DNA of 29,738 nucleotides. Source: a virus. Location: positions 1 to 29,738 of IMG/VR virus record IMGVR_UViG_3300046011_004799. The stretch is one strand, 5' to 3'. The notes beneath the pieces are model-generated. The model did not search any database. It was given only the letters and a program-made list of their open reading frames with translations, and was not told where the DNA came from. The translations under genes were made by a program, and so were the position numbers. Below are positions 8,901-29,738 of this stretch, in pieces (positions within the stretch are counted from its first letter, which is position 1; every line of letters begins with the position of its first letter).

Positions 8901-11833
8901 CAAAATTGGCTGGTGGCACGTATTATAATCAATTAACTAGTGCGGTGGAATTTGATGCAACAAAAGAATATCAAACGGAAGCGTGTGTTACTTATCTTGG
9001 TCAATATTATGTTAGAACAGCTAACCAATACCCAATTGTTAATGGTGTTTACACAAAATTAAAACCAACCGACCCATTACCACAAGACGCGAAGAAAGTT
9101 TGGACCGCAATAGACCATTCTAATTTTGGTGAATACGCTTTTAGACAAGAATACGGTAGAAACTACATGCAAAGATATGATATACAATATTATGATTTAT
9201 TTAGTGAGTTGTATTATGGTTTTGGTGATTACGTAAATAATTTTGCTAATTACATCGGTAAAACAGAAGATAAAACAGTTGGTAAATACAAAGTACTTAA
9301 TAATGTATTAAGAAATAAAAATTATAAAAAACCTTTATCTGGTACTGATACTACTATAAGTGAGATAATTAGTAACATATCTGATACAACTATACCAACA
9401 GAGGTTAACGGAGAGGTAGTCCTTAATGGTTTAACATACTATCAAATCTTTAACACGGTCGCTGAAGAAAGAAGATATTTAGAACTTGGTGATGTGTTTA
9501 AACAACACCCATTTTTTTTAAGTAAAAATGGTAATAAACCAGAACCTTTTGAAGCTTTAAAATTAAATTTACACCCACAAGAGTACATGTTTAAAATTGG
9601 TGATGGTAAAGGTTTACCTTATAATTTCACAGCTTTAACAAGCGCACAAAATAACGGTAGAAGTGGTAAATATTTCCAAGGTAATTTTACGAATGGTTAT
9701 ACAAACAATGTAGATGGTAAATCTGAAACTGGTGGTATTTTCTTTAAAGATACGAATGGTATAAAAATATATAAAGATATTGAATCTAACTTTGTTGATG
9801 AGTTTAGAACAAAAATTGCGACAAACACTTTAGGTTTTTGGTTTGATACAACAGATGATTTAAAAGGGTTTAAAAACTTTTATAAAAATCTGGAAACTGG
9901 GCACATAAAAGATTTTACGAGTTATATTGATACGGAATTTACAAACTTTTATTCTAAGAGAGATTCAGATACCGACTTAACGATAACAGCGTTAAATGAT
10001 TCAATCGCAAAAATGTCAGTTATCTTAGCTGGTTTATCACTACCATTATACGGTTATGATGCAACATATTCAGAGGGTAGAGCCACATTATATGAAGTAA
10101 TACCTAACGCTAAAAAATTAAGTACCCCAATCAATGATAGTACAATGTTTGGTTACAATCCGTATGAAGAATATAAAAAATTATCAATAGACGGTGGTGA
10201 ATTAATTAATTTAAGTGGTGTTTATAATATTCTTACTACTGGTACTGGTACTGGTGCACCAACACCTAGTTTAATAAAAAAATACGCGTCACTTGGTAAC
10301 GGATTGTATTTCTTTAAACAACTTAAAAACGAACTGGATAATACAATATCTGATAGTGTTATTAAAGAGTATATAAGGAATATGACTTACATTAGTGAAG
10401 TGTTAGGTTATCCAACACTTACAGACTTACCAAATCAGTATGATTTTAATAATTTTTTACCATCAAATAATGTATTAAAAATCAATGGTACGGCAGCTAC
10501 GAACACTTTTAAGTTTGGTCAATTAACTTTACCATCGAATACTAGCCCAACAGATCAGAACTTCTCATTTAACCCTTATGAGTACGGTACCAGCGCTAGG
10601 TCTTTAGAAACCACGTCATATGCATTGGTTAGTAGGGATGATAGCACTAACGTAACTAATACGGCTAATAACATATATAATCAAGGTAAGTACCAAATGC
10701 AATATACATTTGAAAAAATTAATTATGAGTTGTTAGATTTTAGTAATAAAACGTTAGATTTTATGTTATCAGATGATTCTGAAACTAAAAACAATGACAT
10801 TGATTTAGTTTATACACCAGCCTATGAATTTGATTTACAGATTAATAATTTGAGTGGTATTTTATTAAACCCAGGGGCATCTGGAACCTCTGGTACCTCT
10901 GGGACATCTGGTACCTCTGGGACATCTGGTACCTCTGGGACATCTGGTATTTCAGGAACTTCAGGAACTTCTGGAACTTCTGGTGTTCCAACAAGCAAAT
11001 TAACGATTTCAGATGTTTTATTTTACTATGGTTTAAATAAGAAAACTAATTCTGGTAATAGTTTTATAAAAGAGATAAATTATTATTTATTTAATGATAA
11101 TAACCCAAATTTAACTGATACTGATTTAAAAACGCAATTAAAAAACCTTAATACTTTAATGGCTTATGATTATACCATAACAGAAGAGTATATTAATTCA
11201 TTACCAGACCAACAAAAACTTAAATTAAGTTATAATAGTGACGTATATGGTGAAACGGTAAAAATGTCAGCTATGCAAGATGTTTTATTCATAGAATTTT
11301 TATATAATCTTTATGTGAACAAATCAGTTCATATTGAAGCTATTATGGCTAAAATAGAAAATACTGGTATTAACCCCCCAGCGAGTATCAGAAATAACCC
11401 GATAAGGCTTATTGGGTATAAGAAAAAACAAATATCCAAAATTAAAAAATCGATTGAGGACACATTCAAACTTATCGAAACTTTTGTTAAAAAATATGAC
11501 TCTGATTTAACTGATGTTTTTAATTATGCGTCAAATATAAATGATAATACCATAAAAAAAATAAATAAAAACATTTTTGGTATTGACGATTCAAGTAAAG
11601 TGTTAGATAGAATAGAGACACAAAATAAATTAATTAAGGGTAGTTATGATGATTATAAAGTTACATTCAGGGAGACAAGTAAACCAGATAGTACGATCAT
11701 TAAAAACTTAAAACTCTTTACAAAATATAAAAATGAGTCTATTATTAATATATGTTCAGTAAACGAAGCTGAGTCGTTTAAAATAAACACCGAAACACAA
11801 TTGGCTAAACTTTACCCAGAGCTTTATAATTAA
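2972..11833 (+). CDS. Giant baseplate-like structural protein (2953 aa) with repeats, OmpA-like region and collagen-like tract
   Basis: Sections in order: (1) residues about 17-600 are ten tandem 58-60-residue units built on [10 protein letters not shown]...AAQYLSGKG...NPGDV...APR. (2) Residues about 1214-1270 carry the run [12 protein letters not shown], then [14 protein letters not shown] and a DHP motif, which look like a baseplate or tail-tube-initiator fold. (3) Residues about 1363-1707 look like an OmpA-type peptidoglycan-binding domain with insertions: FFENDIP, then [32 protein letters not shown] and a terminal FARRVEV strand. (4) Residues about 1870-1910 hold a motif rich in Gly and aromatics ([20 protein letters not shown], then [11 protein letters not shown]). 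(5) Residues 2635-2673 are thirteen Gly-X-Y triplets. The rest is unassigned. It lies between the tape measure and a gp53-like wedge gene, 37 nt after the former and 8 nt before the latter. The class (baseplate) is fairly safe; the exact role is not known. Confidence 0.7.
3020..4770 (+). repeat. Ten tandem coding repeats of 174-180 bp (58-60 aa each)
   Basis: Within the giant structural gene, ten consecutive units share the layout [11 protein letters not shown], then N-L-T-P-N-A, AAQYLSG, an I-N-x-F strand, NPGDV and a closing APR. Most units are 60 residues (180 bp); units 6 and 7 are 58. The first unit is the most diverged and the last ends near DIGTLSGP. Units 5 and 6 are the closest at DNA level: 3987-4057 and 4161-4231 differ at 3 of 71 positions by eye. 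The regular pattern of short strand-like segments suggests a repeated beta domain or solenoid. The function is unknown. Confidence 0.9.
10874..10990 (+). repeat. Collagen-like Gly-X-Y minisatellite (13 triplets, mostly Gly-Thr-Ser)
   Basis: The reading frame gives GAS, seven GTS, GIS, three GTS and GVP without interruption. At DNA level the core alternates GGTACCTCT and GGGACATCT, an 18-bp direct repeat of about three copies. Gly-X-Y runs in phage tail proteins often form trimeric collagen-like rods or flexible stalks. Here the tract separates the large body of the protein from a last domain of about 280 residues, so it may be a linker. The near-identical DNA units would allow copy-number change by slippage. 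Confidence 0.9.
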
Positions 11834-11841
11834 TTATTGAT

Positions 11842-12159
11842 ATGGCTAGATACTTTAATAGATATAAAACATTAGATAGTGACTCAAAACACATATCCCC
11901 ACCGTTTATTAAATTAATCGAAAAAACAACCGATTTATTTACTGTTTATAACACAGGTAAAAGTAGGTTGGATAAGATTAGTCAACAATATTATTCGGTA
12001 CCATATTACGGTTGGTTAATTTTAATGGCGAATCCAGAGGTGGCACCCAGTGAATGGGAAATACCTGATAACACAACGCTTAGGATACCATATCCTTTAC
12101 AAGATACTTTAAACGAATATGATATAAAATTAAAAAACAGGGTAGCGTATTATGGGTAA
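11842..12159 (+). CDS. Baseplate wedge protein, gp53/LysM-like (105 aa)
   Basis: The protein resembles the conserved core of T4 gp53, which joins wedges into the baseplate hexagon and carries a LysM-like fold. Visible matches are the segment from RLDKISQQYY through VPYYGWLILMANPEV, followed by W-E-I-P-D and LRIPYPLQD, the pattern seen in LysM-type baseplate proteins (aligned aspartate, Tyr-Tyr/Trp, Asn-Pro, then a strand with Ile-Pro). T4 gp53 has 196 residues, so this is a short version limited to that core. The gene starts 8 nt after the giant structural gene and its last 8 nt overlap the start of the next gene (ATGGGTAA), suggesting coupled translation. The identification rests on motif similarity seen by eye. 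Confidence 0.65.
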   Translation: MARYFNRYKTLDSDSKHISPPFIKLIEKTTDLFTVYNTGKSRLDKISQQYYSVPYYGWLILMANPEVAPSEWEIPDNTTLRIPYPLQDTLNEYDIKLKNRVAYYG

Positions 12160-15043
12160 CACATATGATGAAAAGATATTATCCAGTTTTGGTAAACTAC
12201 CAACAGAGGTAGGTAAACCTGAAAAAAAAGGGATTTTTGTTGTTGATCCGAATAAAGTAATTAACAGCGATAACAATATTATTCCTAGATATATTAAACA
12301 GGAAGATCTTGTGATGTACGCAAATCTTACCGCTCGTTTAAATCCTGATAGTGCTATTGTAGATAGTGGTGATAGGAATGGATCTAAAGTTTTTACTATT
12401 GGCCAAATAGGGGTTAATTTTATGAACCCTTTAGAAAAAGCGGATAAAAATAATGATGGTACCATAAATTTTGCTAAAAAAAGAAATAAGGGTGTTTTTA
12501 CAACAGACTGGAGTGATTTTTTTACAACAAATAATGAACAAGATGGTTTTTTTGACCCAGAAACATTTGGTATAACAAGTATTGACGTTTCTCATAATGC
12601 GGCGATGACACCCATCATAAAGATAGAATTTGTTGATGTACAGGGTAGAACGTTGCTTGAGAGAGGTAATGACCCAACAAACCCATATAATATTTTTTAT
12701 AGATTTCCATATCCTTTGTTTAGTTTAACAATAAAGGGTTACTATGGTAAAGGTATTGAATACCCTTTGTCAATGACAAAAACGTCAACAACATTTGATT
12801 CATCAACAGGTAATTACATTATTAGGGCTGAATTCTTATCAAGAACATTTTCAATATATAATAACTTTTTAATGGTATATGCTTACTTAGCACCTTATAT
12901 GTATAAAATTGGTGGTGAGAATAGTAAAGATTATCTTGGTAAAAGATTATTAAAAGCGTTATATCAGAAACAAAACAGAAAATACGCAAAAAAATACGGT
13001 GAAAATACAGACGAATACAAAAAACACGAATTTAAAAAATATCCATCAATAATGGATATGATTAGAACAGATACTGCTCTAGGTCGTGATGATTTATCTT
13101 TTAAAGATACACTTACTGCGATTAATAATGATAGATCAGAAGCTTTAAACGCATATTCTGCATTAGAGGGAATATTTGAAAGGTCTATAAAAACACAAAT
13201 ACCAGAATGGCGGAAAAAGTTAGTAGAAGATAACAGAAGTTTTAGTAAATATTACCTTAATGATAATCTTTTGAATAGATTAAAAAATGGGTCAATAGCT
13301 GGTTTATCTTCTGGTGCAATGGCTAAAGAGACTGGTGGTAATAAAATTAACCCATATCTTTTAATAGGAGAGTACTCTGAAAAGGTTGTGGAACAAATAG
13401 ATGGTTTATCGTTTTCATCTACCACTAATTCTAATATTAATAATAGAGATGCTTTAAAAAGTAATATTATTAAGAATATTATATCAGAATTGAGTAATAG
13501 TAAAGATTTCGATAACGAAAAATCATATATAGCTCAATTAAGTGATCGTGATTTAAAAACAATTTTTAATGATGATTTAATACTGTTTAATAACACCTCT
13601 TCGAAAGATATTAACACCCTTAAGAATGTATATTTTAGTGATGTATTTTTCATAAAAGTTCATAAAATCATAATAAAAAATCTTATTGGTTTCTTTGAAA
13701 AAGTGGATTCTAATACTGAAGATCAGTTATTTTTTAATTTAAAAGAAAAAATAGGTTTTGTGCCTAATATTGATAATGTTATCCGTATTTTAATGAATAA
13801 CATGCAAGTGTTCTTAACATTATTAAATTTATCAGCGTTAAATTCTTTTAGACAAATTGCTGATGATGAACACAGGGGAGAAATACAATCTCTTTTTGGT
13901 GAATATGAAATTGATATTGATAATCCCGATATAAAAAAATTCTACCCCTTCCCCAACTATTTTAAAAAAGAACTAGATATTGCTAGTGATACATATGTTT
14001 TTAAAAAAACATATCCAGGAAATATAAATACAAACCAATGGTTTGAAGTTCAGTTTACCGAGGAAATTTTTCGTGCTTTAAAAGCCATGCAGAAACTCCC
14101 TAAAAATTCAACCGATACCAATGATGATATATCAGAAGAGGTGGTGAATGTAAATTTAATAAATGAAAACAATCAAATTGTTAGTAATCAAATTCGTGGG
14201 TTAATATCATCGTTATTGGTTATAAATAATATAAACTCTTACGATATAAAACAAACCCCGATTGAAACTGTTTATGAGTTTGTTGATAAATTAATGTTAT
14301 TTTCTGGTTTTGCAAATACCACAACAGATAAAATAAACCCGAAATTAATCGATATGTTGACCACACACGAATTTTCGATGTTAGAAGATTCTGTTAGAAA
14401 AGCTGATAAGACAAGTCTTAGTGTTTTTTATGCTAATATAAATAATAAAATAAAAAAAATTAATGGAACGGGAACGCATTACGATGCGTTTGCAAGGACA
14501 ATGGCGGGTAGTGATACAAATTCAACTGGTCTTGTTAATAATATCAATAATATAATTTTACAAATAGAACAAACATTGGATAAACAACAATATACAATCT
14601 CTGAACTAAATATAGCTAAACAGCGAATAGAGGGGTATATTAACAGCGCAACAAATTTAGAAACATTTAAAGCGTTATATGATTACAATCCATTAGAATA
14701 TAAGAGTCGTAAAAACCTTAACACACGAAAAAGATTATATTCTGTTTTTTTTAATGGTTTAGATATACATGATCAAATTGAAGGTAATGACCCTAATTTA
14801 AGTACATTATCAACGGAAATTAGAGATAATCATACTGGACCAAATAAAAGTACAAATGGTTATTTGAGTGATAAATTTGATCTTGTTACATACCCATTAG
14901 AATTTAAAATTGATAATAAAGTTTCGGCTAATAAAGAATCAAATGCTTTAGCTATATCAGTTAAAACCGAAGGAATAAACCGATTACTTAAAGCTGATAA
15001 AAAAATTAAAAGTGAAATCAAATATAGTAAAATACTAATATAA
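12152..15043 (+). CDS. Probable baseplate structural protein (963 aa)
   Basis: I cannot assign a named family. Residues about 140-260 form a compact beta-rich section: ITSIDVSHNA, then KIEFVDVQGRTLLERG, NPYNIFYRFPYPLFSLTIKG and YYGKGIEYPL, which looks like a conserved virion fold. The middle and C-terminal parts are helical and rich in Asn, Lys and Ile. There is no signal peptide, membrane segment or catalytic motif. The gene overlaps the gp53-like gene by 8 nt and stops 3 nt before the hub/lysozyme gene, so it is almost certainly part of the baseplate operon. A role as a wedge or hub partner is inferred from position only. An EF-hand-like DKNNDGTINF at residue 98 lacks the final Glu. Confidence 0.6.
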   Translation: MGNTYDEKILSSFGKLPTEVGKPEKKGIFVVDPNKVINSDNNIIPRYIKQEDLVMYANLTARLNPDSAIVDSGDRNGSKVFTIGQIGVNFMNPLEKADKNNDGTINFAKKRNKGVFTTDWSDFFTTNNEQDGFFDPETFGITSIDVSHNAAMTPIIKIEFVDVQGRTLLERGNDPTNPYNIFYRFPYPLFSLTIKGYYGKGIEYPLSMTKTSTTFDSSTGNYIIRAEFLSRTFSIYNNFLMVYAYLAPYMYKIGGENSKDYLGKRLLKALYQKQNRKYAKKYGENTDEYKKHEFKKYPSIMDMIRTDTALGRDDLSFKDTLTAINNDRSEALNAYSALEGIFERSIKTQIPEWRKKLVEDNRSFSKYYLNDNLLNRLKNGSIAGLSSGAMAKETGGNKINPYLLIGEYSEKVVEQIDGLSFSSTTNSNINNRDALKSNIIKNIISELSNSKDFDNEKSYIAQLSDRDLKTIFNDDLILFNNTSSKDINTLKNVYFSDVFFIKVHKIIIKNLIGFFEKVDSNTEDQLFFNLKEKIGFVPNIDNVIRILMNNMQVFLTLLNLSALNSFRQIADDEHRGEIQSLFGEYEIDIDNPDIKKFYPFPNYFKKELDIASDTYVFKKTYPGNINTNQWFEVQFTEEIFRALKAMQKLPKNSTDTNDDISEEVVNVNLINENNQIVSNQIRGLISSLLVINNINSYDIKQTPIETVYEFVDKLMLFSGFANTTTDKINPKLIDMLTTHEFSMLEDSVRKADKTSLSVFYANINNKIKKINGTGTHYDAFARTMAGSDTNSTGLVNNINNIILQIEQTLDKQQYTISELNIAKQRIEGYINSATNLETFKALYDYNPLEYKSRKNLNTRKRLYSVFFNGLDIHDQIEGNDPNLSTLSTEIRDNHTGPNKSTNGYLSDKFDLVTYPLEFKIDNKVSANKESNALAISVKTEGINRLLKADKKIKSEIKYSKILI

Positions 15044-15046
15044 AAT

Positions 15047-18000
15047 ATGGCATCATATAATCAAAATTTTTTAGATAAAAGGTATATATCAAACAATGAT
15101 ATTGATGTAAACGCTATGATGATTAGTGTTATAGATGAAACTAAAAATGGTACCTTTGACACACTCAAAAAAGAATTGGAATCAACTCAAAATGATAATA
15201 TTTTAACAGCTGGTGTAAGTAATCACACTATTTTTGCACAAAATATGGTAAAAGAAACCACCACTGGTAAATTTTTTAAAAGCGGTCAAATGTTTTTAAA
15301 TAATATAGAATGTGAATCAAACCCTGGTTACTTAGATTTTAATTTTCTAACAACAGCTTTTAAAACAACACAAGGTTTAGTTGAATTACCTATACACACG
15401 ATATTAAAAATTGGTGGTATGTACGATTTTTATTATTATAATGATTATGAAAAAGACGATAAAATTGATCTTGGTATTGTAAATGGTTTAAAAACAAAAA
15501 ATGGTTATGATTTATTTGATGACCCTATCATAAGAAACAAACATTATGGTACTTATGTATTTGATGATAAGAACCTTATTTTAGCAACAGCACCATTTGT
15601 AAAACCAATAACACCAAAACATGTTGATGATTTGGTTGGTAATGGTAGTGATTCTTTTAGTAATACTAATTTTAGTAAAAACTATAAAGAAAAATACTAT
15701 GATTATGATCTTGAGGTTCAATTGTCTTTAAATAATAATATCGCATCACACATGCCATTTAGTGGTTATGGTGTTTTGAACAATTACATGAATGCAATGT
15801 CGCATTTCTTTTTTGGGCAAGGACTTGATGGTAGTACTGATATAACTGATACCACAAATAATGACGGTATTCCTTATCATATTATTGGTAATTTTAAGGG
15901 TAATTTAAAAACGTTTAAAACTTATAATGATACACAACTTAATTTTTTAGCATCATATAATAGTTTTGGCCCCAAAATTAAACATAATATTAATATTGAG
16001 GTTTTAAAAACAAGTTTAAATACATTAACAAAAACAATCACACTTGACGCTAAGTTTGTTTTTTCAAAAGATACTAAAAAAACTGAGTTTTTTTTATTGC
16101 TATCAAAAATTAAAGCTAATTACCTTGGCGGTTATATTTCAACAGATTATGTTTACACAATAATTAAAGGTTTATGTGAAGTTAATAATTTAAACGCAAA
16201 ACATGAAAATATTCCTTTATCCGATTTCACCGCATTATTAATACACTTACTTTTTTATCCAGATGGTACTGAAAGAGATTCCAGAAGACCTAATAAAACA
16301 CTTAGAATATTATCATTGTATGACGTGGACCCAAATTCATTCATGCCAATAATAACATATGACACAAAAACTATTTCACAACTTACCGATTTTTTAACAA
16401 ATATAATAATTGAGTCACCAGAAAAACAATATGAACAAGTCGCCTATTTATTATTATCTTTATGGTCAAAAGAATTTAACCGAAAAATAAGTGATAGGTT
16501 ATCAAAGATAGATGAAGAAGGTACATACGTTGTTTACCCAAGTTGTGGGGGTGAGATTAATATTAAAGAATTATTTTCAAATAAAAATTACACCTACAAT
16601 AAAACAAATAATGTATCAACACTTATAGAAAAAGCTGATTTAAGTGATTCTTATATCACAGGTCTAACAACATCATCATTTACTAATATTGGTACGAATG
16701 AAAAACGTTATGATAATATAAACAATGATGTGTTAAGTGCTTTAAATTTTGATTACAAAACTTTTTACAGCAACTTACCAAACAATATTTCGATTGATAA
16801 ACCACCTATTGCCGATTTTCTAGCTATAAAGGGTTTAGCTGGTACACTTAAATATTCACAAAAAGATACGAATCCAAAATCAATAGAAGATAACGACAAT
16901 TTCTTTTTATCAAAATATCAAGTTGTAACATCAAATCTTGATAGATATGATGATTTATATATTATCGCAAACACAACAAACCCGTCTGGAATTAAAGAAT
17001 TATATTTTGATAATAGAAATCTTATTAATAATACATCTAAATTATTTTGGTTTGATCAAACAAGAAATATTTTTCCGATAACCAAAGACTATGTTTCACA
17101 AAACGGTCAACATTTAGTGGATGGTAAAGTTTATGATAACTATGAGGTGTCACAATACGGTCATGATGGTAACGTAAGACAGTTGTATGATTGGGGTAAT
17201 CCGTTAAAGGATAAACTTAATATTACCGACTATTCAAAATTTGAAAAAGATAAATCTTTATATTTTAGTGCTAAATGGTTTACTATTGATAATAAAAAAG
17301 AAATAGTTACTACAGCTGAAATTGATGCGCTTATTGACATATTTGGTGTTGATAAGTTAGAAGATTTTAGGTCTTTATTTAAAAATTTTACTGATACAGA
17401 CACAGGGGATTATTTTACCGAAACTTTTAACACGTTTAACTTTCAGTCGTTAATCAAACATACAAATATTTTTGGTTATAAAGATTTACCAGATAGCGTA
17501 ACATTAGATAGAGCATACACAAAAGAAGAGATATCAGCTTTTTTATGTGGTTATTCTGGTTATTTTATTGAGTTTGCATCTAAAAATGATGTATCTAAAA
17601 TAATAAACTACGCTTTAACGATCGGTCAAGAAAATAAAGCTAAAATTGTTATTGATGAGTTTATGAACGATAAGATAACGATCAACAACTACTCAACAAC
17701 AGGACCTTTATATGTAGATAATACCTTAAACAACCCAAAAGGTCTTAGGTTAAACTCTAATATATTTAATCCAATAATAATGTATGCTACTGAAACAAGA
17801 ACACCTGATAATATTATAGCTAAACTTGACTATAGGTTATTATTTAGAACATTGTTATTCGGAGACCAACCTATTAAATCATATGACGTAAAAACAATAC
17901 CAGATAATTTTAACACTTTGGTTGATAAATATTTGGGATCTCGTGAATTATATAGCGTTGAACCAACACTGGGAAAAATATTATTACCAGAATTAACAAA

Positions 18001-21000
18001 GATATTCTTTAGTACATTAAACATTGAAATTACCGAAGGTAATTTAAAATTATTATTAGCGTACTTAAAAAGTTATATATATTATTATATTGGTTCAGAA
18101 GAAAAATCAATAATCTCATCCGATGGTTTTGACATAACAGGTTTAAAAATAATTAATAATAGAAACGCAACAATATATCCTTCATCTGATACAGCTAAAG
18201 ATGAAGAGATTGATTATACTATTGACCCTGATGCTAATAGTACTAACATTGTGATAAATCAGGTTACAAACGGTGTTTTAGAACCAGTTGGTGAAGTAAA
18301 ATACTTATTTAACACAATTGATGACCTTAAACCAAGGGAAAAACTTAAAGAGTATATCGATTATACTAATAAAAATATTTTAACAAACCAGATAGAAACT
18401 TTTAATATAGGTTTAGAGAAGTTTTCAGAACTAGCAAAATCAAAAATTGATACATTACCTACGTTAGAAGATTCTGGGTCAGAAGATGAAAAATGGGATG
18501 AAAAATTAAAAAAACAAGATATTGAATTAAGAACAGGTACTTACTATAGGATTAAAACGTTATATGATAGAAGTGTTTCATTTAATAATATAGATTTAAA
18601 CGATAGTAAATTAATTAGAAAAAGAAGTAAAGATTTAGCTAATATAAATGTAAATGACATATTAGATAATCCGTTATTTTTTAATTTTAATATTGAAACA
18701 GATGACACTGACTATGAAAATTGTGTTGATAAAAATATAATCGCGGATAAGACAGATCCAAAAATCAGTGATGGTAGGTTAAAAGATCTTTATGATTATG
18801 CCTTTGTTTTGGATAGAGGTAATAATGATTACGGTAGTAGGGTATTGGCGAATATTAACGCACTTAAAAAGGTTATTGCGGATGACATAACAAATGTTAC
18901 GCAAGTTGATAATACACTAAGATCAAAGTCAATGTGGTCCGTCTTATCAACCTTAGCGAGTGATCACGAATTTTTGTTATTACCTTTAACATCTTATATT
19001 AATTTAAACGGTGCTGTTAAGGATGCCACTGACCCTTTTGAATTGGCTCATGATATGTTTGGTGTTTTTAACAACCTTGAAATGTTCAAGTCAAACCCAG
19101 CGTTCATATTTCAATTGGGTTCATTAACATCAAACGTTTCCGCTGGTAATAAACAAAAGAGAAACAGTTTATCCGAATTTGATTTGAGTAATACATTTTG
19201 TATGGACATAGAAACAAACCAATTGGATTCAGATGGTAATGGTAAACTTTTAGATGAGGGTATACCAAATGATATTTTAAATTCAAACGTTTCTTCATTT
19301 ATTGTCGATTTTGGAAATAAAAACCAAAACATGTTTCAAAATATTCAACTATCAACAGATGAATTTGCTAACACGGAAGAAAGTATATTTACTCAGGTTA
19401 ATTTAACATCAGATAGTGGAAATATCGCTCAGTTATCAACAGGTAAATTATTTACCGCAATGGAAAACAGATCTTATTCTTGTACTGTTACAAGTTTAGG
19501 TAATGCTAGTATACAACCATTAACATATTTTTACGTTAAAAACGTACCATTATTTTACGGAACTTATTGGATTACGAATGTAAGTCATAAAATAACACCC
19601 AATAATATGACAACAACATTTAAAGGTGTTAGACAACCAATAGCAAAGAAACCAACAGCAAACACAACCGTATTACAACAATTATTTAAAAAAGCAGAAG
19701 CTGCTGTTGTAGCATCTGGTGGTATTTCAAACGATCAAAGAATTAACGGGGCCACATTTGGACCTGTTTTTGCCGCAAATAACAGAGATAGTCCAGCAGA
19801 TGCTACTGATAATGGTTTCGGTTTATTTGCACAAGAATCTGTTCAAAAACCAGGTCTTTTTGTTAATTATAGTGGGCAATGGATTGCGGCCGCATATCTT
19901 AAATTGATGACAAAAGGTGATAAAAGTAATATGTTATTAATAAAAGCTTTAATCGCTTATTTATATAGCAATGCGTCAACACTTATTAATGAGATTAATG
20001 CCACTACCAATAGTGCTAATGGTGTTATTGATCCACCATCGCCAGCGACTGCTGTTAAATATTTTGCTGATATCATTGTTTATGATCTATATAACAAAAT
20101 AGATACTAATAATATTGATATTAAAAAAAATGGTGCAACATCGGTATCAATATCGAAATTACTTGGTAATTACGATACGAAAAATAGTGATTATGAAGAG
20201 ATATTATCTGAATTTCAACAAAAAAATGATACTGAGGCGTTAGAATATTTAAAACATGATAAAGCAATAACAGGTGTTAAAACAACGTTAATTACCTCAG
20301 ATACTGGTGGTGTTGTCGCTAATGATGCGGCTAAAGCAAAAATAAGTTATCCCGATGATATTGAAGGTATACCAGCCACAGATACATCCAACTTTATTGG
20401 TGCGGCGTATTGGGTTTCAGGTAAAAAAGAAAATAACTTTATTGAGTTACAAGGTTTTAATAGATATCAGTTAACTAATGAGTTATATAATACAACTAAA
20501 CCAGGTAACTCAGCAAACCCTTTTATACCTGATTTTGAACTAACAAGTTTTACCCTTGACTCTGGCGTAAGTACGATTGACCTTAACTCAAAATATTTTA
20601 TTATTGTTAAATTTAGTAATAGTCCTAATGGAAACTATACACCCGAAATAGTTCAACCGAATAATAACCTAACTATTAACCCTAACATTAACCCTAACGC
20701 TAATTTAAACCCAGTTACAGCTAATTTAAATAATATTAACACTACTAATACTAGTCTTAGTACTCCATTACCTGGTAATCCTAATTATATAGATCCTTAT
20801 TTTAATAATAACCCATGGGGTAGTTCTATTTTTAACCCCGTTCCAACGAATTATACCGCTCCTACCCTTAAGTATGGTATACGTGAAAAATTCGTGGTAT
20901 TAACAACCACTACTACACAATCACTAGAATTTGTTATTGGTCAACAAAATTATGAAAAATATAAAAGTTATGGGCATATCGAGATTGAACTTTATACCCC

Positions 21001-22705
21001 TTATAAGACATCTGACGGTTACCCAAAACAAGTTATAACAGAGTGGAAGTATAAAAGAATAGGTACTAAAAAATATGATTTTAATCCTACAAATGCGACA
21101 TCACAAAATACGACTAACATACCTGTTGTACTCGGTTTTGGAGATGTAAATGGTGGGGGGGAATCGAAAACATATTCTACAAATAACGGTAAATTTACTT
21201 ACGGTAAATCATTTAGTAATAAATATAATAGGGGTGGAAATGATTATCTAGCGAATGTATTAGGTGCTATTAAAAACGGTAATAATTCATACGTTAGTTT
21301 TCTTTCTATAAGACTTTGGGACGAGAAAGCTAAATTCCTCAAAGATCGAACTGTTAGAAGTTATATTGACCTTAACGTTTTAGGTAATAATGTAGATAAA
21401 AAAGCTTGGACAATAGAAAATAAAAATATTGACCTAAGCAACCTTTATATTCAACAACCACCAGCAGGAAATAACGCAGCAGGAAATAACGCAGCAGGAA
21501 ATAACAGACGTAGTTCACAAAGACGGACTACGACTAGGACTAAAAATGTATCACAACTAACTGGCCAAGCACTCAACAATGCGATGTATATTAAAAATTA
21601 CCTAAAAGGTAAAGGTTTTTCAAAAGAAGAAGTTGCTGGTACTTTGGGTAACATGATGACAGAAACAGGGGGTTCATTTGACCCTGAAATAACAAATGGA
21701 AGGGATGTTAACCGTCTAATATCTGTAGGTTTAATACAATGGAATAGTATAAATTTTAATAAAACCAACAAACAGGGAGTACTTAATAAAATTGGGTATA
21801 CTGTACAAGCACAATTAGATTATTTAACTGCTGGTGGTTGGAAAAACAAGACCAATCAATTCCGTGAAGATTTTAAAAAAGAAATCCAAAACCAAAACCC
21901 CACATTAAAAATCTCCCAAACTAAGGGTAAAGCAGAAGGGTTATCGGAAGGGGAGTTTAATGCTTATAAAGCTGGATATTTTTTCGCCCAATCTGTTGAA
22001 ATTTGCAATAATTGTAATCAAGGCTTTGAAAGTTATCATGAGACAATTACTAAAACAGTTGGCACCGATAAATACACCATAAAAGCGTTTGAAAGAAGTG
22101 GATATGCAGTTGATTTTTATAAAAGAATGAATGACGTTAACGACCCTTTAAAATGGGAATCCACAGCATCATCAGCACAGCCAACATCATCATCAGCACA
22201 GCCAACATCATCATCAGCGCAGTCAACATCACAGGATGTAGTAACAATAGGGGATTCTATTTCAATACTTATTAATAAAATTTATCCAAATATAAAACTT
22301 ATACCTAATTTAAGCGAGAGTGGTAAACCAGCTAGTTGGTTATTGGGTCAATTAGAAAAAATTAATAACACAATTAGTGCTCCTTTATATGTAATCTTAT
22401 CTATTGGATCAAATAATCTTTGGAAATTAGATTCAGATGGTGTTGATAAAAAACTAATTGAAAAAATTAAAGAAGTTTTCCCTTCCGCTAATTTATATAT
22501 ACTAAATGGTAGTTATGGTTGGCTTAATCTAACAGGTGGGTCTGATAAAGATTGGGAAGATAAAATAAATAAGTATACCAGTTTTTATGAAGATAAAGGT
22601 TTTAATATTATTGGTGATGTGAGTAAACTAACTACCCACCCAAGACAGGATGATAATTTGCTTAAATCCTTTAATAGAAATATGAAAGCGCTTAAGATAA
22701 TATAG
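15047..22705 (+). CDS. Giant baseplate hub-like protein with C-terminal tail lysozyme and SGNH hydrolase domains (2552 aa)
   Basis: The large N-terminal part (to about residue 1540) is structural. Its end, with YSCTVTSLGNASIQPLTYFY, then VPLFYGTYWITNVSHKITPN and FKGVRQ, has the look of a baseplate hub (gp27/late control D class). An Asn/Pro-rich linker follows near 1868-1920, then a beta section. Residues about 2179-2360 match the phage tail lysozyme family: YLKGKGFSKEEVAGTLGNMM followed by TETGGSFDP, with Glu2206 as likely catalytic acid, and GLIQWN. A Ser/Ala/Gln/Thr linker (about 2370-2395) leads to an SGNH hydrolase-like domain with GDS (Ser2404), G-S-N-N (Gly2454, Asn2456) and T-H-P (His2531). 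T4 gp5 has 575 residues, so this fuses hub, lysozyme and esterase-like parts. It starts 3 nt after the previous gene and ends on TAG. Confidence 0.75.
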   Translation: MASYNQNFLDKRYISNNDIDVNAMMISVIDETKNGTFDTLKKELESTQNDNILTAGVSNHTIFAQNMVKETTTGKFFKSGQMFLNNIECESNPGYLDFNFLTTAFKTTQGLVELPIHTILKIGGMYDFYYYNDYEKDDKIDLGIVNGLKTKNGYDLFDDPIIRNKHYGTYVFDDKNLILATAPFVKPITPKHVDDLVGNGSDSFSNTNFSKNYKEKYYDYDLEVQLSLNNNIASHMPFSGYGVLNNYMNAMSHFFFGQGLDGSTDITDTTNNDGIPYHIIGNFKGNLKTFKTYNDTQLNFLASYNSFGPKIKHNINIEVLKTSLNTLTKTITLDAKFVFSKDTKKTEFFLLLSKIKANYLGGYISTDYVYTIIKGLCEVNNLNAKHENIPLSDFTALLIHLLFYPDGTERDSRRPNKTLRILSLYDVDPNSFMPIITYDTKTISQLTDFLTNIIIESPEKQYEQVAYLLLSLWSKEFNRKISDRLSKIDEEGTYVVYPSCGGEINIKELFSNKNYTYNKTNNVSTLIEKADLSDSYITGLTTSSFTNIGTNEKRYDNINNDVLSALNFDYKTFYSNLPNNISIDKPPIADFLAIKGLAGTLKYSQKDTNPKSIEDNDNFFLSKYQVVTSNLDRYDDLYIIANTTNPSGIKELYFDNRNLINNTSKLFWFDQTRNIFPITKDYVSQNGQHLVDGKVYDNYEVSQYGHDGNVRQLYDWGNPLKDKLNITDYSKFEKDKSLYFSAKWFTIDNKKEIVTTAEIDALIDIFGVDKLEDFRSLFKNFTDTDTGDYFTETFNTFNFQSLIKHTNIFGYKDLPDSVTLDRAYTKEEISAFLCGYSGYFIEFASKNDVSKIINYALTIGQENKAKIVIDEFMNDKITINNYSTTGPLYVDNTLNNPKGLRLNSNIFNPIIMYATETRTPDNIIAKLDYRLLFRTLLFGDQPIKSYDVKTIPDNFNTLVDKYLGSRELYSVEPTLGKILLPELTKIFFSTLNIEITEGNLKLLLAYLKSYIYYYIGSEEKSIISSDGFDITGLKIINNRNATIYPSSDTAKDEEIDYTIDPDANSTNIVINQVTNGVLEPVGEVKYLFNTIDDLKPREKLKEYIDYTNKNILTNQIETFNIGLEKFSELAKSKIDTLPTLEDSGSEDEKWDEKLKKQDIELRTGTYYRIKTLYDRSVSFNNIDLNDSKLIRKRSKDLANINVNDILDNPLFFNFNIETDDTDYENCVDKNIIADKTDPKISDGRLKDLYDYAFVLDRGNNDYGSRVLANINALKKVIADDITNVTQVDNTLRSKSMWSVLSTLASDHEFLLLPLTSYINLNGAVKDATDPFELAHDMFGVFNNLEMFKSNPAFIFQLGSLTSNVSAGNKQKRNSLSEFDLSNTFCMDIETNQLDSDGNGKLLDEGIPNDILNSNVSSFIVDFGNKNQNMFQNIQLSTDEFANTEESIFTQVNLTSDSGNIAQLSTGKLFTAMENRSYSCTVTSLGNASIQPLTYFYVKNVPLFYGTYWITNVSHKITPNNMTTTFKGVRQPIAKKPTANTTVLQQLFKKAEAAVVASGGISNDQRINGATFGPVFAANNRDSPADATDNGFGLFAQESVQKPGLFVNYSGQWIAAAYLKLMTKGDKSNMLLIKALIAYLYSNASTLINEINATTNSANGVIDPPSPATAVKYFADIIVYDLYNKIDTNNIDIKKNGATSVSISKLLGNYDTKNSDYEEILSEFQQKNDTEALEYLKHDKAITGVKTTLITSDTGGVVANDAAKAKISYPDDIEGIPATDTSNFIGAAYWVSGKKENNFIELQGFNRYQLTNELYNTTKPGNSANPFIPDFELTSFTLDSGVSTIDLNSKYFIIVKFSNSPNGNYTPEIVQPNNNLTINPNINPNANLNPVTANLNNINTTNTSLSTPLPGNPNYIDPYFNNNPWGSSIFNPVPTNYTAPTLKYGIREKFVVLTTTTTQSLEFVIGQQNYEKYKSYGHIEIELYTPYKTSDGYPKQVITEWKYKRIGTKKYDFNPTNATSQNTTNIPVVLGFGDVNGGGESKTYSTNNGKFTYGKSFSNKYNRGGNDYLANVLGAIKNGNNSYVSFLSIRLWDEKAKFLKDRTVRSYIDLNVLGNNVDKKAWTIENKNIDLSNLYIQQPPAGNNAAGNNAAGNNRRSSQRRTTTRTKNVSQLTGQALNNAMYIKNYLKGKGFSKEEVAGTLGNMMTETGGSFDPEITNGRDVNRLISVGLIQWNSINFNKTNKQGVLNKIGYTVQAQLDYLTAGGWKNKTNQFREDFKKEIQNQNPTLKISQTKGKAEGLSEGEFNAYKAGYFFAQSVEICNNCNQGFESYHETITKTVGTDKYTIKAFERSGYAVDFYKRMNDVNDPLKWESTASSAQPTSSSAQPTSSSAQSTSQDVVTIGDSISILINKIYPNIKLIPNLSESGKPASWLLGQLEKINNTISAPLYVILSIGSNNLWKLDSDGVDKKLIEKIKEVFPSANLYILNGSYGWLNLTGGSDKDWEDKINKYTSFYEDKGFNIIGDVSKLTTHPRQDDNLLKSFNRNMKALKII
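21464..21505 (+). repeat. Short direct repeat, 15 bp x 2.8, in the linker before the lysozyme domain
   Basis: GCAGGAAATAACGCA occurs at 21464-21478 and 21479-21493, with a partial third copy at 21494-21505. It encodes an A-G-N-N-A run followed by a basic RRSSQRR segment. The tract lies just before the tail lysozyme domain and is best read as a flexible linker that grew by slippage. Confidence 0.85.
22169..22231 (+). repeat. Three 21-bp direct repeats encoding the linker between lysozyme and SGNH domains
   Basis: Units at 22169-22189 and 22190-22210 are identical; the third (22211-22231) differs at two positions (22219 and 22223). Each encodes seven residues of the type S-S-A-Q-P-T-S. This is a typical low-complexity hinge between two folded domains, and its exact copies suggest recent slippage. 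Confidence 0.9.
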
Positions 22706-24142: not shown

Positions 24143-25084
24143 ATGATTGACTACAAGAAAATCGATTGGTCCAAGGCCGCAACAGACACACTGGCCGACT
24201 ACGAAAAAGCAAAGTCGAAAACAACACAGACTACCCAATCTAGTTCTGTCGACTTAACAAAGTATTTCACGATCGCACTTGATGAAGGTGCGCAAAGCGG
24301 TGAAAAATCAGTTAGGATTCTTCCTAACCAAGACGATCCAACTAAATGGTACAAAGTTGGTTATTTCCACAACCTAAAAATAGGTAAAAGATGGACAAAA
24401 CTTTATGATCCATCACAAGATGGCGATGATTCTCCTTTGAATGAGATGTACAAATTCTTAATGAAGAGTGCAGACAAAGAAGACAAGAAATTGGCTATCA
24501 ATTACAAATCACGCCAGTTCTTTATTGTTCGTGTTATCGAACGTGGTAAAGAGCATGAAGGTGTTAAATTCTGGAGATTTCCAGCAGTACAAGATGGTTC
24601 AGGTATTATGGACAAAATTGCACCACTTGTTAAAAAATACGGTGCGTTTTGGAACCCGTTTGAAGGCTTTGATATTACAATCTCTATGCTTAGAGATAAA
24701 TCAAAAGACAGTAAAGTTGGTTTCACTAAAGTTTCATCTGTCATTCCTGATAGAGAATCTAAATTGTCTGATGATGAAAACCAATCAGTTGAGTGGTTGA
24801 GTGATCCAATGGCATGGACTGATGTTTTCAAGAAAAAATCTATTGAATATTTAAACATTGTTGCTGAAGGTAGCGAACCAATTTGGGATGCTGAGCAAAA
24901 ATGCTTTATCGCTAAAGTTGAAGATGGAGTAAGTACATACACTGGAGCTTCCGCACCAACACCTAAAGCTAAGTACGAGACACCAGCACCAGTTGCTATG
25001 TCTGAAGAAGATACTGATGTAGATGGTGTTGTAGAAGAAAGCGCACCAGCTGGTCAGTTAAAGATTGACGATTTACCATTCTAA
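24143..25084 (+). CDS. gp32-like single-stranded DNA-binding protein (313 aa)
   Basis: This coats ssDNA during replication and recombination. The length is close to T4 gp32 (301 aa). The N-terminal basic/helical arm, the core (SVRILPNQDD, then WYKVGYFHNLKIGKRW) and the W-R-F...F-W-N-P-F-E-G-F-D segment follow the gp32 layout. His76 lines up with T4 zinc ligand His64, but the three Cys ligands are replaced (about Asp89, Ser97, Asn100); the only Cys is 254, so no zinc site should form. A Pro/Ala-rich acidic tail (about 265-313) ends in K-I-D-D-L-P-F, like the tip of bacterial SSB. The gene has its own promoter 21 nt upstream and a terminator immediately downstream, and its 5' codons are more C-rich than those of the structural genes, all suited to high expression. 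Confidence 0.85.
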   Translation: MIDYKKIDWSKAATDTLADYEKAKSKTTQTTQSSSVDLTKYFTIALDEGAQSGEKSVRILPNQDDPTKWYKVGYFHNLKIGKRWTKLYDPSQDGDDSPLNEMYKFLMKSADKEDKKLAINYKSRQFFIVRVIERGKEHEGVKFWRFPAVQDGSGIMDKIAPLVKKYGAFWNPFEGFDITISMLRDKSKDSKVGFTKVSSVIPDRESKLSDDENQSVEWLSDPMAWTDVFKKKSIEYLNIVAEGSEPIWDAEQKCFIAKVEDGVSTYTGASAPTPKAKYETPAPVAMSEEDTDVDGVVEESAPAGQLKIDDLPF

Positions 25085-25096
25085 AAATAACATATT

Positions 25097-25151
25097 AAGC
25101 ATGGATGTAAGTATGGATATGATGTCTATACAAGTGTCCATGCTTTTTTTT
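25097..25151 (+). terminator. Strong two-tier intrinsic terminator after the ssDNA-binding protein gene
   Basis: AAGCATGGA (25097-25105) pairs perfectly with TCCATGCTT (25137-25145), extended by three G-T pairs (25106-25108 with 25134-25136). After a 2x2 internal loop, GTATGGA (25111-25117) pairs with TCTATAC (25125-25131) with one wobble, leaving a 7-nt loop. The stem runs into eight T residues (25144-25151). This would end or weaken transcription between gp32 and uvsX, leaving gp32 mRNA in excess and with a structured 3' end. Confidence 0.85.
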
Positions 25152-25167
25152 AAACATTAAATATTAT

Positions 25168-26184
25168 ATGGCAGTAAAGAAAAAAGAATTTTCTTTTGAT
25201 GATCTCAAAAAGAAGATGAGTACAACAACTAAATACAAATCAGATTTATTTCTGAGTTGTGGTGAAGCCTTTTTAGAGGCATCTGGGGTTCCAGGTCCAT
25301 GTATGGGTCACATTAATATGTTACTTGGTCACACCAACACAGGTAAGACAAGTGCGTTAATTGCGGCATCAGTTGATGCGCAAAAAAAGGGTATCTTACC
25401 AGTTTATTTGGTAACAGAGAAAAAATGGAGTTTTGAACATTGCCAACTTATGGGTTTAGAGTGTTCAAGAAATGAAGAAACTGGTGAGTGGGATGGATTC
25501 TTCCTATACCGTGATGATTTTAATTACATTGAACAAGTTACTGATTACATCAATGAAGTTTTAGATATGCAAGCTAAAGGTGATTTACCTTATGATGTTT
25601 GTTTCTTCTGGGATTCAGTTGGTTCGGTGCCATGTAAAATGACATGGGAAGGTAAAGGTGGTAAACAACATACCGCAGGTGCGTTGGCTGAAAAGATTAA
25701 CATGGGTATTAACCAAAGAATCAATAACAGCCGTAAAGAAACATCACCATATTTAAATGGTCTTGTTGTGTGTAACTTACCATGGGTAAGACTTCCAGAT
25801 TCTCCAATGGGTCAACCTAAGATGAAACCAAAAGGTGGTGAGGCTATCTATCAAGCGGCTACATTAGTGTTCCGTTTTGGTAATGAAGCTGACGGTGGTA
25901 TAAACAAAATTGATGCAACAAGCAAAGGTAGAAAAATCAATTTTGCGACAAGAACCAAAGTTACTGTGGATAAAAACCATATCAACGGTCTTGGTTACGC
26001 TGACTCAAAAATTATTGTTACACCACACGGATTCATTACTGATGATAAACGTGACAATAAAGCGGCATTAGACTTGTACAAAAAACAAACTTTCGAGTAC
26101 TGGGCTAGTAAAATAGATGATGCTAACTTCGAGTTAGAGGAATATGAGGTTAACCAAAAAATCTCTTATTCCGATGAAGATTAA
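25168..26184 (+). CDS. uvsX: UvsX/RecA-like recombinase (338 aa)
   Basis: An ATP-dependent strand-exchange protein that forms filaments on ssDNA for recombination-dependent replication and repair, working with the gp32-like protein just upstream. The Walker A motif is GHTNTGKT (54-61), the likely catalytic Glu is Glu84 (LVTEKK), Walker B is CFFWDS ending at Asp149, and the L2-type loop with P-K-G-G-E-A-I-Y-Q lies near 221-229. T4 UvsX has 391 residues, so this is a compact form. The acidic C-terminus (SYSDED) is typical of RecA-type proteins. It begins 16 nt after the T-run of the terminator, with no visible promoter of its own, so it probably depends on read-through from the gp32 promoter. 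Its stop overlaps the next gene. Confidence 0.85.
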   Translation: MAVKKKEFSFDDLKKKMSTTTKYKSDLFLSCGEAFLEASGVPGPCMGHINMLLGHTNTGKTSALIAASVDAQKKGILPVYLVTEKKWSFEHCQLMGLECSRNEETGEWDGFFLYRDDFNYIEQVTDYINEVLDMQAKGDLPYDVCFFWDSVGSVPCKMTWEGKGGKQHTAGALAEKINMGINQRINNSRKETSPYLNGLVVCNLPWVRLPDSPMGQPKMKPKGGEAIYQAATLVFRFGNEADGGINKIDATSKGRKINFATRTKVTVDKNHINGLGYADSKIIVTPHGFITDDKRDNKAALDLYKKQTFEYWASKIDDANFELEEYEVNQKISYSDED

Positions 26185-27232
26185 TAAACCAATAAGACAT
26201 AATAAAGTTAATACAACTATTAACTCATTACTTATAGATGGTGAATATCTTTTAAAACAAGGGTTTCATGGTACCAAGCAGCTACAAGGTAAAGAAGGTA
26301 GCGTTGGTACCATATTCCATTTTATTAACACCATTAAGAGGTTCTATCAAGATTACGCAGTCACAAAGGTTGTTGTATTTTGGGAAGGTAAAGGGTCTAA
26401 AGATTATAGACAAGGTTACTATCCATACTACAAACAAAACCGTGACAACAAAGTAACGATTGATGAAAAACACGATTTGGATCGACAAAGAATCCGAATC
26501 AAACAATACCTAGAGGAATTATCAATTAGACAGGTTGAAATTGATGGATGTGAGGCCGATGATGGTATAGCATACTATTCAATGAACTCGGTTAATGAGA
26601 GTAAGATTGTTTATACAAATGATCGTGACTTATTACAATTATTGGATGAAAATACGAAAGTATGTTTGACAATAAAGGGTGCTAAGGTTATGATTAATAT
26701 GGATAATTTTGACAGCTATTTTGATTACCACTATTCAAATGTTGGTATTATTAAAATGATTGCTGGTGATACAAGCGACAACATATCTGGTTTACAAAAT
26801 ATTGGTGAACAAAAAGTGTTAAAATATTTCCCAGAAATAAAAAAACAAACCGTTAACCAGGATTGGGTTATCGATAGAACGAAAGAGTTATTGATTGAAA
26901 AACCGAATGATAAAACGTTGAATACTATCATTAACGGTGAAACCAAATGGGGTACATACGGAACGGATTATTTTTCAGTAATGAATAAAATAATTAATCT
27001 CAAAGAACCACATGTTACTGACGAATTAAAGGAAGCTATTAGTGAGATGGTTAATGAAACTTTGTCACCTGAAGGACGTGGTGGTATCAAAAAAATCATG
27101 GAAATGATGAAAGAAGATGAATTGTTAAATTTTTTACCAAGAAATGATGATAGTTTTTTTACCTTTTGGTCTTCATTTATAACAATAATAAAGAAGGAAG
27201 AAAGTTTATACCATAAAAAAAAGATGTTATAA
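26174..27232 (+). CDS. rnh: RNase H / FEN-type 5'-3' exonuclease, T4 Rnh-like (352 aa)
   Basis: This family removes RNA primers and 5' flaps from lagging-strand fragments. Metal-binding positions are visible in order: Asp22 (LLIDGEYLL), the segment VVVFWEG with Glu71 where an Asp is usual, the Y-x3-R type helix Y-Y-K-Q-N-R (85-90), E127/D129/D130 (CEADDGIAYY), D150/D152 (YTNDRDLLQLL) and D199/D202 with the helix-hairpin motif (AGDTSDNISG, then IGEQKVLKYF). T4 RNase H has 305 residues. I chose the ATG at 26174, which overlaps the uvsX stop by 11 nt. An in-frame ATG at 26144 would give 362 residues but a 41-nt overlap and a non-conserved extra arm. The protein may also act as a repair exonuclease. 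Confidence 0.85.
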   Translation: MKINKPIRHNKVNTTINSLLIDGEYLLKQGFHGTKQLQGKEGSVGTIFHFINTIKRFYQDYAVTKVVVFWEGKGSKDYRQGYYPYYKQNRDNKVTIDEKHDLDRQRIRIKQYLEELSIRQVEIDGCEADDGIAYYSMNSVNESKIVYTNDRDLLQLLDENTKVCLTIKGAKVMINMDNFDSYFDYHYSNVGIIKMIAGDTSDNISGLQNIGEQKVLKYFPEIKKQTVNQDWVIDRTKELLIEKPNDKTLNTIINGETKWGTYGTDYFSVMNKIINLKEPHVTDELKEAISEMVNETLSPEGRGGIKKIMEMMKEDELLNFLPRNDDSFFTFWSSFITIIKKEESLYHKKKML

Positions 27233-27267
27233 AACACAAAAAAATGATCAAAAAAAAGGTTCATAAT

Positions 27268-27298
27268 TTGGTTTTACGATCAACTTTTATTACTATTA
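27268..27298 (+). promoter_or_regulatory. Possible weak promoter before the 160-aa gene
   Basis: TTG (27268-27270), a 20-nt spacer and TACTATTA (27291-27298) repeat the spacing and first four bases of the strong promoter before the ssDNA-binding protein gene, but the TTTG end is not kept. The 81-nt gap is the longest within the replication module, which makes a promoter plausible here. Confidence 0.3.
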
Positions 27299-27313
27299 TA
27301 TAAAATATAAAAA

Positions 27314-27796
27314 ATGTATACAACACAAAAAACAAATAACATGGAAGAAAAAAGAGAGCAACGTAAATTTGAGTTTACGCTTTATCTAAACGACAACATT
27401 ATCGTACAAAGATTCTTTAACATTATCGGTTTTAATAACAAAGCGATAAACTCAATGAACTTTAAACATGCGATGGATGAAAACGTTTCGTTGATTAAAA
27501 GTATTTTAAAAGACAAAGCATCAGACTTTATGACTGAACACCACAGGCATTTCTTTGAAATACCAAATTATGAACAAAATGGTTCTAAAGACGCGATGAA
27601 AATTGTGATTAAACATGATGGTAATGTAATTTCTTACAGAGAATGGGATGCAACCATTTACCCTGTTAAAATTAGATACACAGTTGATATTCGTCAGCAC
27701 ATCTATGAATTGATTACACGTGTTCAAAAATGTTTATGCACACCAACAAGAGAGTTAGAGACAGAATACCTTGGATATAGTTTACGAACACAATAA
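27314..27796 (+). CDS. Replication-module protein of unknown function (160 aa)
   Basis: No family is recognised. The sequence has a beta-rich beginning (RKFEFTLYLNDNIIVQRFFN), a helical middle (AINSMNFKHAMDENVSLIKS and onward), a second beta part (MKIVIKHDGNVISYREWDAT) and a helical end with a Cys-Leu-Cys pair. An ATG at 27341 (MEEKREQ) is an alternative start that would remove a polar 9-residue arm. It lies between the 5'-3' exonuclease and the replicative helicase and ends 13 nt before the latter. A helicase-loader or other replication accessory role is possible from position alone; T4 gp59 is longer (217 aa) and no clear similarity is seen. Confidence 0.7.
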   Translation: MYTTQKTNNMEEKREQRKFEFTLYLNDNIIVQRFFNIIGFNNKAINSMNFKHAMDENVSLIKSILKDKASDFMTEHHRHFFEIPNYEQNGSKDAMKIVIKHDGNVISYREWDATIYPVKIRYTVDIRQHIYELITRVQKCLCTPTRELETEYLGYSLRTQ

Positions 27797-27809
27797 AATT
27801 AAAAATTAA

Positions 27810-29222: not shown

Positions 29223-29263
29223 TAAACGTATCTTTACCCATATTTATTTAAACAATAAAAATT

Positions 29264-29738
29264 ATGCAAGAAAAAATTTTACAGGAAAATCCAAATAGAT
29301 TTGTTATTTTCCCTATTGAACACAACGACATTTGGGAGTTCTACAAACAACATCAGGCTGCGTTTTGGACAGCTGAAGAAGTCGATTTATCTAACGATAC
29401 CAGGGATTGGCAAAACTTAACGGATAATGAAAGGTATTTTATTAAAAACATTTTATCATTCTTTGCTTCATCGGATGGTATTGTTAATGAAAACCTTGCT
29501 GAGAATTTTTTAAAAGAAGTGCAATACCCAGAGGCTAAGTTCTTTTATGGGATTCAGATTGCCATGGAAAATATCCACAGCCTTATGTATTCTTTGTTGA
29601 TTGATACTTACATATCAAATGCACAAGAAAAACTAGAAAGTTTCAGGGCATTGGAACATTTACCAGCGGTACAGAAAAAAGCTAATTGGGCTTTGAACTG
29701 GATTGAAAACGCTTCTTTTCAAGAAAGATTGGTTGTCT
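29264..29738 (+). CDS. nrdB: Class I ribonucleotide reductase small (beta) subunit, 5' part
   Basis: This subunit houses the di-iron centre and tyrosyl radical needed to reduce ribonucleoside diphosphates, supplying dNTPs for phage replication. The visible 158 residues include [12 protein letters not shown] (about 34-45), Asp71 ([10 protein letters not shown]) as the first iron ligand, and the E-x2-H-x3-Y motif: Glu102, His105 and Tyr109 ([10 protein letters not shown]), matching E. coli Glu115, His118 and the radical Tyr122. Later ligands lie beyond the window; the frame is open to the edge. T4 NrdB has 388 residues. The ATG at 29264 is the only suitable start, 41 nt after the helicase stop. 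Confidence 0.93.

Follow-up and report, generated by a model that had tools for sequence, protein, structure and literature searches.

The stretch of viral DNA analyzed here, referred to as the window (29,738 nucleotides; IMG/VR record IMGVR_UViG_3300046011_004799), encodes a giant protein whose C-terminal part joins a lysozyme domain to an SGNH-fold domain, a fusion confirmed as a real feature by its recurrence in other contigs. Judged from conflicting identities between the domains of related chains, the enzyme set at this C terminus has been changed by recombination. We hold with about even confidence that the chain serves a contractile-tailed phage of the T4 superfamily as a penetration protein at the tail tip, carrying exchangeable wall enzymes among which the SGNH domain would act as a deacylase on behalf of the lysozyme.

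As the first-pass annotation had it, the protein is a single chain; it is read from an ATG start, and the repeat-coded linkers described there are likewise present as tandem repeats in the DNA. The relevant features of the window are as follows:

11842 to 12159, + strand: gp25-like gene (baseplate wedge; phrog_7145, E 6e-4), whose presence nearby points to a baseplate cluster
12152 to 15043, + strand: 963-residue open reading frame between the gp25-like gene and the giant open reading frame, likened to a gp6/J wedge by position only
15047 to 22705, + strand: giant tail-tip protein, plausibly hub-like, with C-terminal lysozyme and SGNH domains; ATG start, 2552 residues
18530 to 19672, + strand: conserved core of the body (residues 1162-1542), found in 44 IMG/VR loci
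19673 to 21461, + strand: variable middle region (residues ~1543-2138), with nothing above the Pfam cut-off
21462 to 21505, + strand: repeat-coded linker, 2.9 copies of a 15-bp unit (AGNNA)
21572 to 22156, + strand: PF18013 tail-lysozyme domain (residues 2176-2370), from Pfam and the fold model
22163 to 22231, + strand: repeat-coded linker, 3.3 copies of a 21-bp unit (TSSSAQP)
22235 to 22702, + strand: SGNH-fold domain (residues 2397-2552) with Ser2404, Gly2426, Asn2456, His2531, and Asp2536, from the model and the alignment

A base-for-base identical open reading frame is carried by a second record (L001, IMGVR_UViG_3300046003_003527), three further loci (L002, L004, and L011) match its C-terminal part at 100%, and an equal domain order occurs on a 320,934-bp contig (L022) at 38-44% identity per domain. 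A tblastn search of annotated phages with the whole chain gave no match.

The lysozyme domain is recognized directly by Pfam, with PF18013 (Phage_lysozyme2) matching residues 2177-2279 at 38.9 bits (cut-off, 28.2). The Glu that had been assigned to position 2206 stands there and is kept in 11 of 11 distinct aligned sequences, including that of the window. Bacteriophage phi29 gp13 is both a phmmer match of the lysozyme stretch (E 3.9e-7) and a match of our structural model by fold (Z 11.6, 135 residues aligned), which bears out the earlier assignment of this domain.

The SGNH domain is weak by sequence and, in the predicted structure, clear by fold. Lipase_GDSL_2 (PF13472) scores 12.4 bits on this part of the window, below the Pfam cut-off of 32.9, and is found at E <= 1 in all six family members scanned (best, 0.0013). 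For residues 2168-2552, an AlphaFold2 model was built from 10 sequences (pLDDT 74.7, pTM 0.56). Foldseek matched this model to PAF-acetylhydrolases, a Phocaeicola sialate O-acetylesterase, acetylxylan esterases, and others, and VIA-align placed SGNH structures at Z 9.7-11.2 over 134-155 residues among the 50 matches listed, including Staphylococcus aureus OatA (Z 10.8) and Campylobacter jejuni PatB (Z 9.7). The fold matches also include the carbohydrate esterases CE2, CE3, and Axe2, as well as TesA and PAF-acetylhydrolase at Z about 10. Because lipases and thioesterases score within about 1.5 Z of the O-acetyl enzymes, these matches do not tell the substrate; structure prediction of the C-terminal part, as proposed in the first-pass annotation, thus upheld the SGNH fold and left the O-acetyl enzymes tied with the lipases and thioesterases. 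The model places Ser2404 (model residue 237) at the start of helix 237-245, behind strand 231-235; Gly2426 and Asn2456 come after strands 249-256 and 281-285, respectively, and His2531 lies ahead of the last helix. The Ser, Gly, Asn, and His blocks are arranged likewise in SGNH proteins.

Ten SGNH sequences could be aligned (window, L009, L015, L016, L017, L018, L022, L055, L165, and L166), which amount to eight lineages given the near-identical pairs L015/L016 and L017/L018. The three residues originally named, Ser2404 (block I, GDS), Asn2456 (block III, GxN(D)), and His2531 (block V), are at their assigned positions and are each kept in all 10, even where identity to the window falls to 31%. 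The residue after the block III Asn is D in six sequences, N in three (the window included), and G in one. By alignment, the block II Gly (Gly2426 in the window) is present in nine and replaced by Ser in L166, an alignment that is uncertain here because the loop length varies. The canonical Asp three residues before the His is found in none of the 10, the window having Leu2528; Asp2536, five residues after the His, is invariant and would be a candidate alternative acid. The domain is likely to be catalytically competent. By tblastn, neither the SGNH domain of the window nor that of L009 matched an annotated phage, and a profile search of genome contigs with the SGNH alignment returned 18 stretches, none of them a relative.

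An IMG/VR scan with the core (residues 1162-1542) yielded the 44 loci, which form 26 clusters at 95% core identity. At their C termini, these relatives carry M23, DUF2272 (which we take to be a wall enzyme, and which Pfam lists as uncharacterised), VanY, SLT, cell-wall hydrolase, PF18013, and endolysin-like domains, with the SGNH domain present or absent. Using our own HMMs or Pfam, we recognized a wall enzyme or DUF2272 in 23 of the 26 clusters; among those 23, the enzyme is in the next gene, on another chain, in L039, L040/L041, and L048, and DUF2272 is alone in two (the L056 cluster and L063). The body (1618-1686 residues) and the wall enzymes of L039, L040, L041, and L048 are two adjacent, unfused open reading frames. 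For the cell-wall hydrolase family PF07486, the L042 match clears the Pfam threshold, and those of L039 and L040 narrowly miss it. The three clusters with no recognized enzyme are L064, where Pfam gave nothing above cut-off, and L066 and L067, which, like L012/L031/L032/L033, L034, and L036/L037, were typed by our own HMMs only. "Endolysin-like" (GH104L) is our own label for a domain of L009, L018, L055, L065, and L165, and it rests on tblastn matches to Synechococcus phage proteins annotated as endolysin or hypothetical (best 25 of 163 records); the L018 stretch has no Pfam family and no PDB match. When the L022 and L018 chains were compared with annotated phages by tblastn, only their lysozyme or endolysin-like stretches matched (for L018, among the best 25 of 163 records).

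The SGNH family occurs in six of the 26 clusters, always as the last domain, standing directly behind PF18013 in three (window, L022/L060, and L015/L049) and directly behind the endolysin-like domain in the other three (L009/L038, L018/L054, and L055). Its profile finds one copy in three of seven related records and none in four, all copies being on the body open reading frame. VanY is the last domain in L050, behind PF18013, and in L065, behind the endolysin-like domain, whereas M23 and DUF2272 precede the cutter in other relatives and are not seen at the SGNH place. The L017 contig has no body, its order being DUF2272-PF18013-SGNH. In a distant cluster (L062, 5451-6827), PF18013 is followed by a different GDSL-like domain (PF00657, E 3.7e-4, narrowly below cut-off), in which the block V His seems by eye to be missing.

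Domain identities within this set conflict in several directions. The window and L009 are 89% identical in the core and 34% in the SGNH domain; L009 and L018 are 41% identical in the core, 65% in the SGNH domain, and 68% in the endolysin-like domain. L018 and L056 share 88% of the core, with the SGNH domain in L018 only, and L017 and L018 share 98% of the SGNH domain behind differing domains. Correspondingly, L009 falls with L018 and L017 in the SGNH tree (100/100) but with the window, L003, and L005 in the core tree (100/99); the place of the window in the SGNH tree is poorly supported (62/68). By identity, the nearest SGNH domains to that of the window are those of L165 (50%) and L166 (49%), and the core HMM found no body on the SGNH-ending proteins of either contig. 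In L165, the SGNH domain ends a 692-residue protein without a Pfam family, and the adjoining 864-residue protein has an endolysin-like domain and CHAP; in L166, it ends a 1358-residue protein with PF18013 at 318-430. The two tandem open reading frames of L165 (3704-8450) have, by eye, similar spike-like middles and end in the endolysin-like domain plus CHAP and in the SGNH domain, respectively. As its presence on these body-less proteins shows, the module moves between tail proteins, sometimes without a cutter in the same chain, and since relatives carry other wall-cutting enzymes at the C terminus, these phages appear to swap their wall-opening tools.

The identity of the long N-terminal body is less clear. 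A hub-like body, as claimed in the first-pass annotation, is plausible by position and by eye: the gene lies two genes after the gp25-like gene, and related contigs have matches to sheath (5/7 related records at E <= 0.001; 1/7 over the Pfam cut-off) and to gp23-type capsid (3/7), several of these seven records being fragments. None of the known hub families tried was matched, and a structure model of residues 1060-1660 reached a pLDDT of only 34.5. When a profile of 31 distinct core sequences was compared by hhalign with 16 proteins from T4, phi11, and P2, no match was significant, those to T4 gp27, P2 D, and phi11 gp44 included; this is a weak test with single-sequence targets, and its best E value (0.087) fell on P2 FI and P2 U, neither of them a hub. 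A comparison of the core with 11 proteins from Flavobacterium phage immuto, L165, and L166 likewise gave no significant match (best, immuto gp111 at E 0.025 over 17 columns, then gp33 at E 0.074 over 115 columns). In six related records, PF05954/PF24032 had no significant match and PF04717 was not found, and a PDB search with the body found no relative. IMG/VR scans for relatives of P2 D and T4 gp27 kept 80 loci (98-100% identical) and 12 loci (59-99% identical), respectively; the L165 spike-like query and immuto gp33, run without a positive control, found nothing in eight records. That the body is instead a wedge, a spike, or some other non-hub part of the baseplate, or a protein akin to a tape measure, has an appreciable, though below even, probability. 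Besides the failure to match a known hub family, it is favored by the spike-like (by eye) proteins of L165 that bear the same SGNH family and by PHROG tape-measure matches to the chain, although the latter arise from the lysozyme stretch only; against it, the last segment of the core (residues ~1475-1530) looks by eye like hub barrels, a likeness that passed no test.

The surroundings of the gene offer some further observations. Upstream lies a 2953-residue tail-fibre-like open reading frame (2972-11833; phrog_5073, E 3e-5) that contains a 174-bp repeat array (3867-4342) as well as 9/18-bp repeats (10880-10984). Shortly past the tail gene, replication and recombination genes (24143-29738) encode a gp32-like SSB, a UvsX-like protein, an exonuclease (phrog_107) whose start overlaps the end of the UvsX-like open reading frame, a DnaB-like helicase, and a ribonucleotide reductase small subunit. 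The best match of the helicase is Microcystis phage Mel-JY01 (29%). The backbones of L165 and L166 resemble Flavobacterium phage immuto, and L165 is more strongly matched to Mel-JY01 (34%, E 4e-50). On the question of the host, the accessible part of a paper on gut Jug phages (PMC12363816) offers nothing.

For the role of the SGNH domain, peptidoglycan O-deacetylation is our leading guess, and the stepwise wall opening suggested in the first-pass annotation is compatible with the domains found beside it. Peptidoglycan is favored as the target because PF18013 or the endolysin-like domain precedes the SGNH domain in all six clusters and VanY takes the SGNH place in two. This assignment must be set against the 20 of 26 clusters that have no SGNH domain, the L165 SGNH chain with no recognized cutter of its own, and the unusual acid residue. 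A more specific version, in which a widespread group of giant tail-tip proteins forms a chassis for shuffled enzymes and the SGNH domain serves specifically as a peptidoglycan (O-acetyl) esterase, using the Asp at His+5 as its acid and making way for the lysozyme during entry, seems to us doubtful.

Deacetylation of a surface glycan (capsule, exopolysaccharide, or O-antigen) before wall contact, in the manner of tailspike esterases, is unlikely. As far as the accessible parts of the sources go, tailspike O-antigen deacetylation (PMC5380687) and a tail fibre with an SGNH domain (PMC10684548) are both known, and the CE2, CE3, and Axe2 fold matches are compatible with such a substrate. The location of the domain directly behind a lysozyme or endolysin-like domain, in a place that VanY holds in two relatives, argues against it, and the Pfam and PHROG scan of the chain found no tailspike or fibre family. 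We consider it still less likely that the domain is degraded or non-catalytic, for example, a glycan-binding module: the absent Asp at His-3, the weak Pfam scores, the block II Gly lost in L166, and the apparent lack of a block V His in the distant L062 domain point that way, but the invariance of Ser, Asn, and His across so divergent a set, together with an invariant alternative acid, speaks against loss of function. A lipid esterase of the lysophospholipase or thioesterase kind, helping to breach a membrane once the wall is open, would suit the TesA and PAF-acetylhydrolase matches and the place of the domain at the very end of the chain but is improbable given that the other C-terminal domains of the relatives are wall enzymes.

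In the penetration mechanism that we prefer, the long N-terminal body, probably hub-like, would anchor the chain in the baseplate, and the C-terminal part would bear, on flexible linkers, a set of exchangeable wall enzymes that sheath contraction would push into the envelope. There, the lysozyme domain, whose family is established, would cut the glycan strands of peptidoglycan, and the SGNH domain would remove an acyl group, most likely the peptidoglycan O-acetyl group, that otherwise blocks the lysozyme. The choice of enzymes by recombination would probably fit the wall chemistry of the host. The relatives constitute a natural series of tail-tip proteins in which core identity reaches 89% and the wall enzymes vary. 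Should the enzyme set follow the wall chemistry of the host, then peptidoglycan modification in the host could be read from phage sequence, and the series could show whether a virion must strip O-acetyl groups before its lysozyme works; if the stricter chassis and O-acetyl esterase version were true, then the presence of an SGNH domain would predict O-acetylated host walls.

Several known systems share parts of this architecture. Morphogenesis protein 1 of phi29 (gp13) has the same lysozyme family and fold but neither an SGNH domain nor a giant body, its second enzyme being a LytM-type peptidase. S. aureus OatA and C. jejuni PatB share the SGNH fold and act on the peptidoglycan O-acetyl group, and the OatA catalytic domain (155 residues) is similar in size to the SGNH domain of the window; both are transferases, however, and the likeness is by fold alone, with Z scores tied with those of many SGNH proteins. 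The precedent among tail-tip proteins is phi11 Gp44 and 80alpha Tal (gp59), which combine a gp27-like (Mu Tal-like) N terminus with a C-terminal SGNH/GDSL domain, and for which the accessible text describes the enzymatic activity of 80alpha Tal as not established (PMC4876445, PMC7048315). These are 633-residue proteins of S. aureus siphophages for which the same text does not mention PF18013, in contrast to the 2552 residues and PF18013 of the window, and their SGNH part matches our SGNH family profile weakly (E 0.027 over 41 columns). The statement of the first-pass annotation that no standard hub has this domain order holds for the triple of hub, lysozyme, and SGNH, of which we found no description in the full-text literature accessible outside subscription papers, but hub plus SGNH is known from these two proteins.

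Tail lysins with two enzymes are otherwise familiar. Like the window, enterococcal tail-associated lysins pair PF18013 with another wall enzyme, namely CHAP, M23, or amidase (PMC10194240); in the accessible text of that paper, SGNH, GDSL, and lipase are absent, and esterase appears in a reference only. For Staphylococcus phages, the available text lists five virion lysins with two lytic domains, Gp44 included (PMC5380687). Among viral structure models, Foldseek matched A0A6J5QC57 (SGNH-named, 438 alignment columns) and A0A6J5NSN6 (lysozyme-named, 385 columns), whose alignment lengths appear to span both domains, so that databases may already contain chains with both a lysozyme and an SGNH domain. 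Flavobacterium phage immuto gp033 ("carboxypeptidase") has a C terminus that looks VanY-like by eye, as L050 and L065 have VanY by Pfam, and its N-terminal part is 34% identical over 281 residues to the SGNH-bearing L166 protein; it differs in its length of 938 residues, with no SGNH domain seen and no significant match to the body of the window. What is new here is that the relatives of the body, in 44 loci and 26 clusters, carry exchangeable C-terminal domains.
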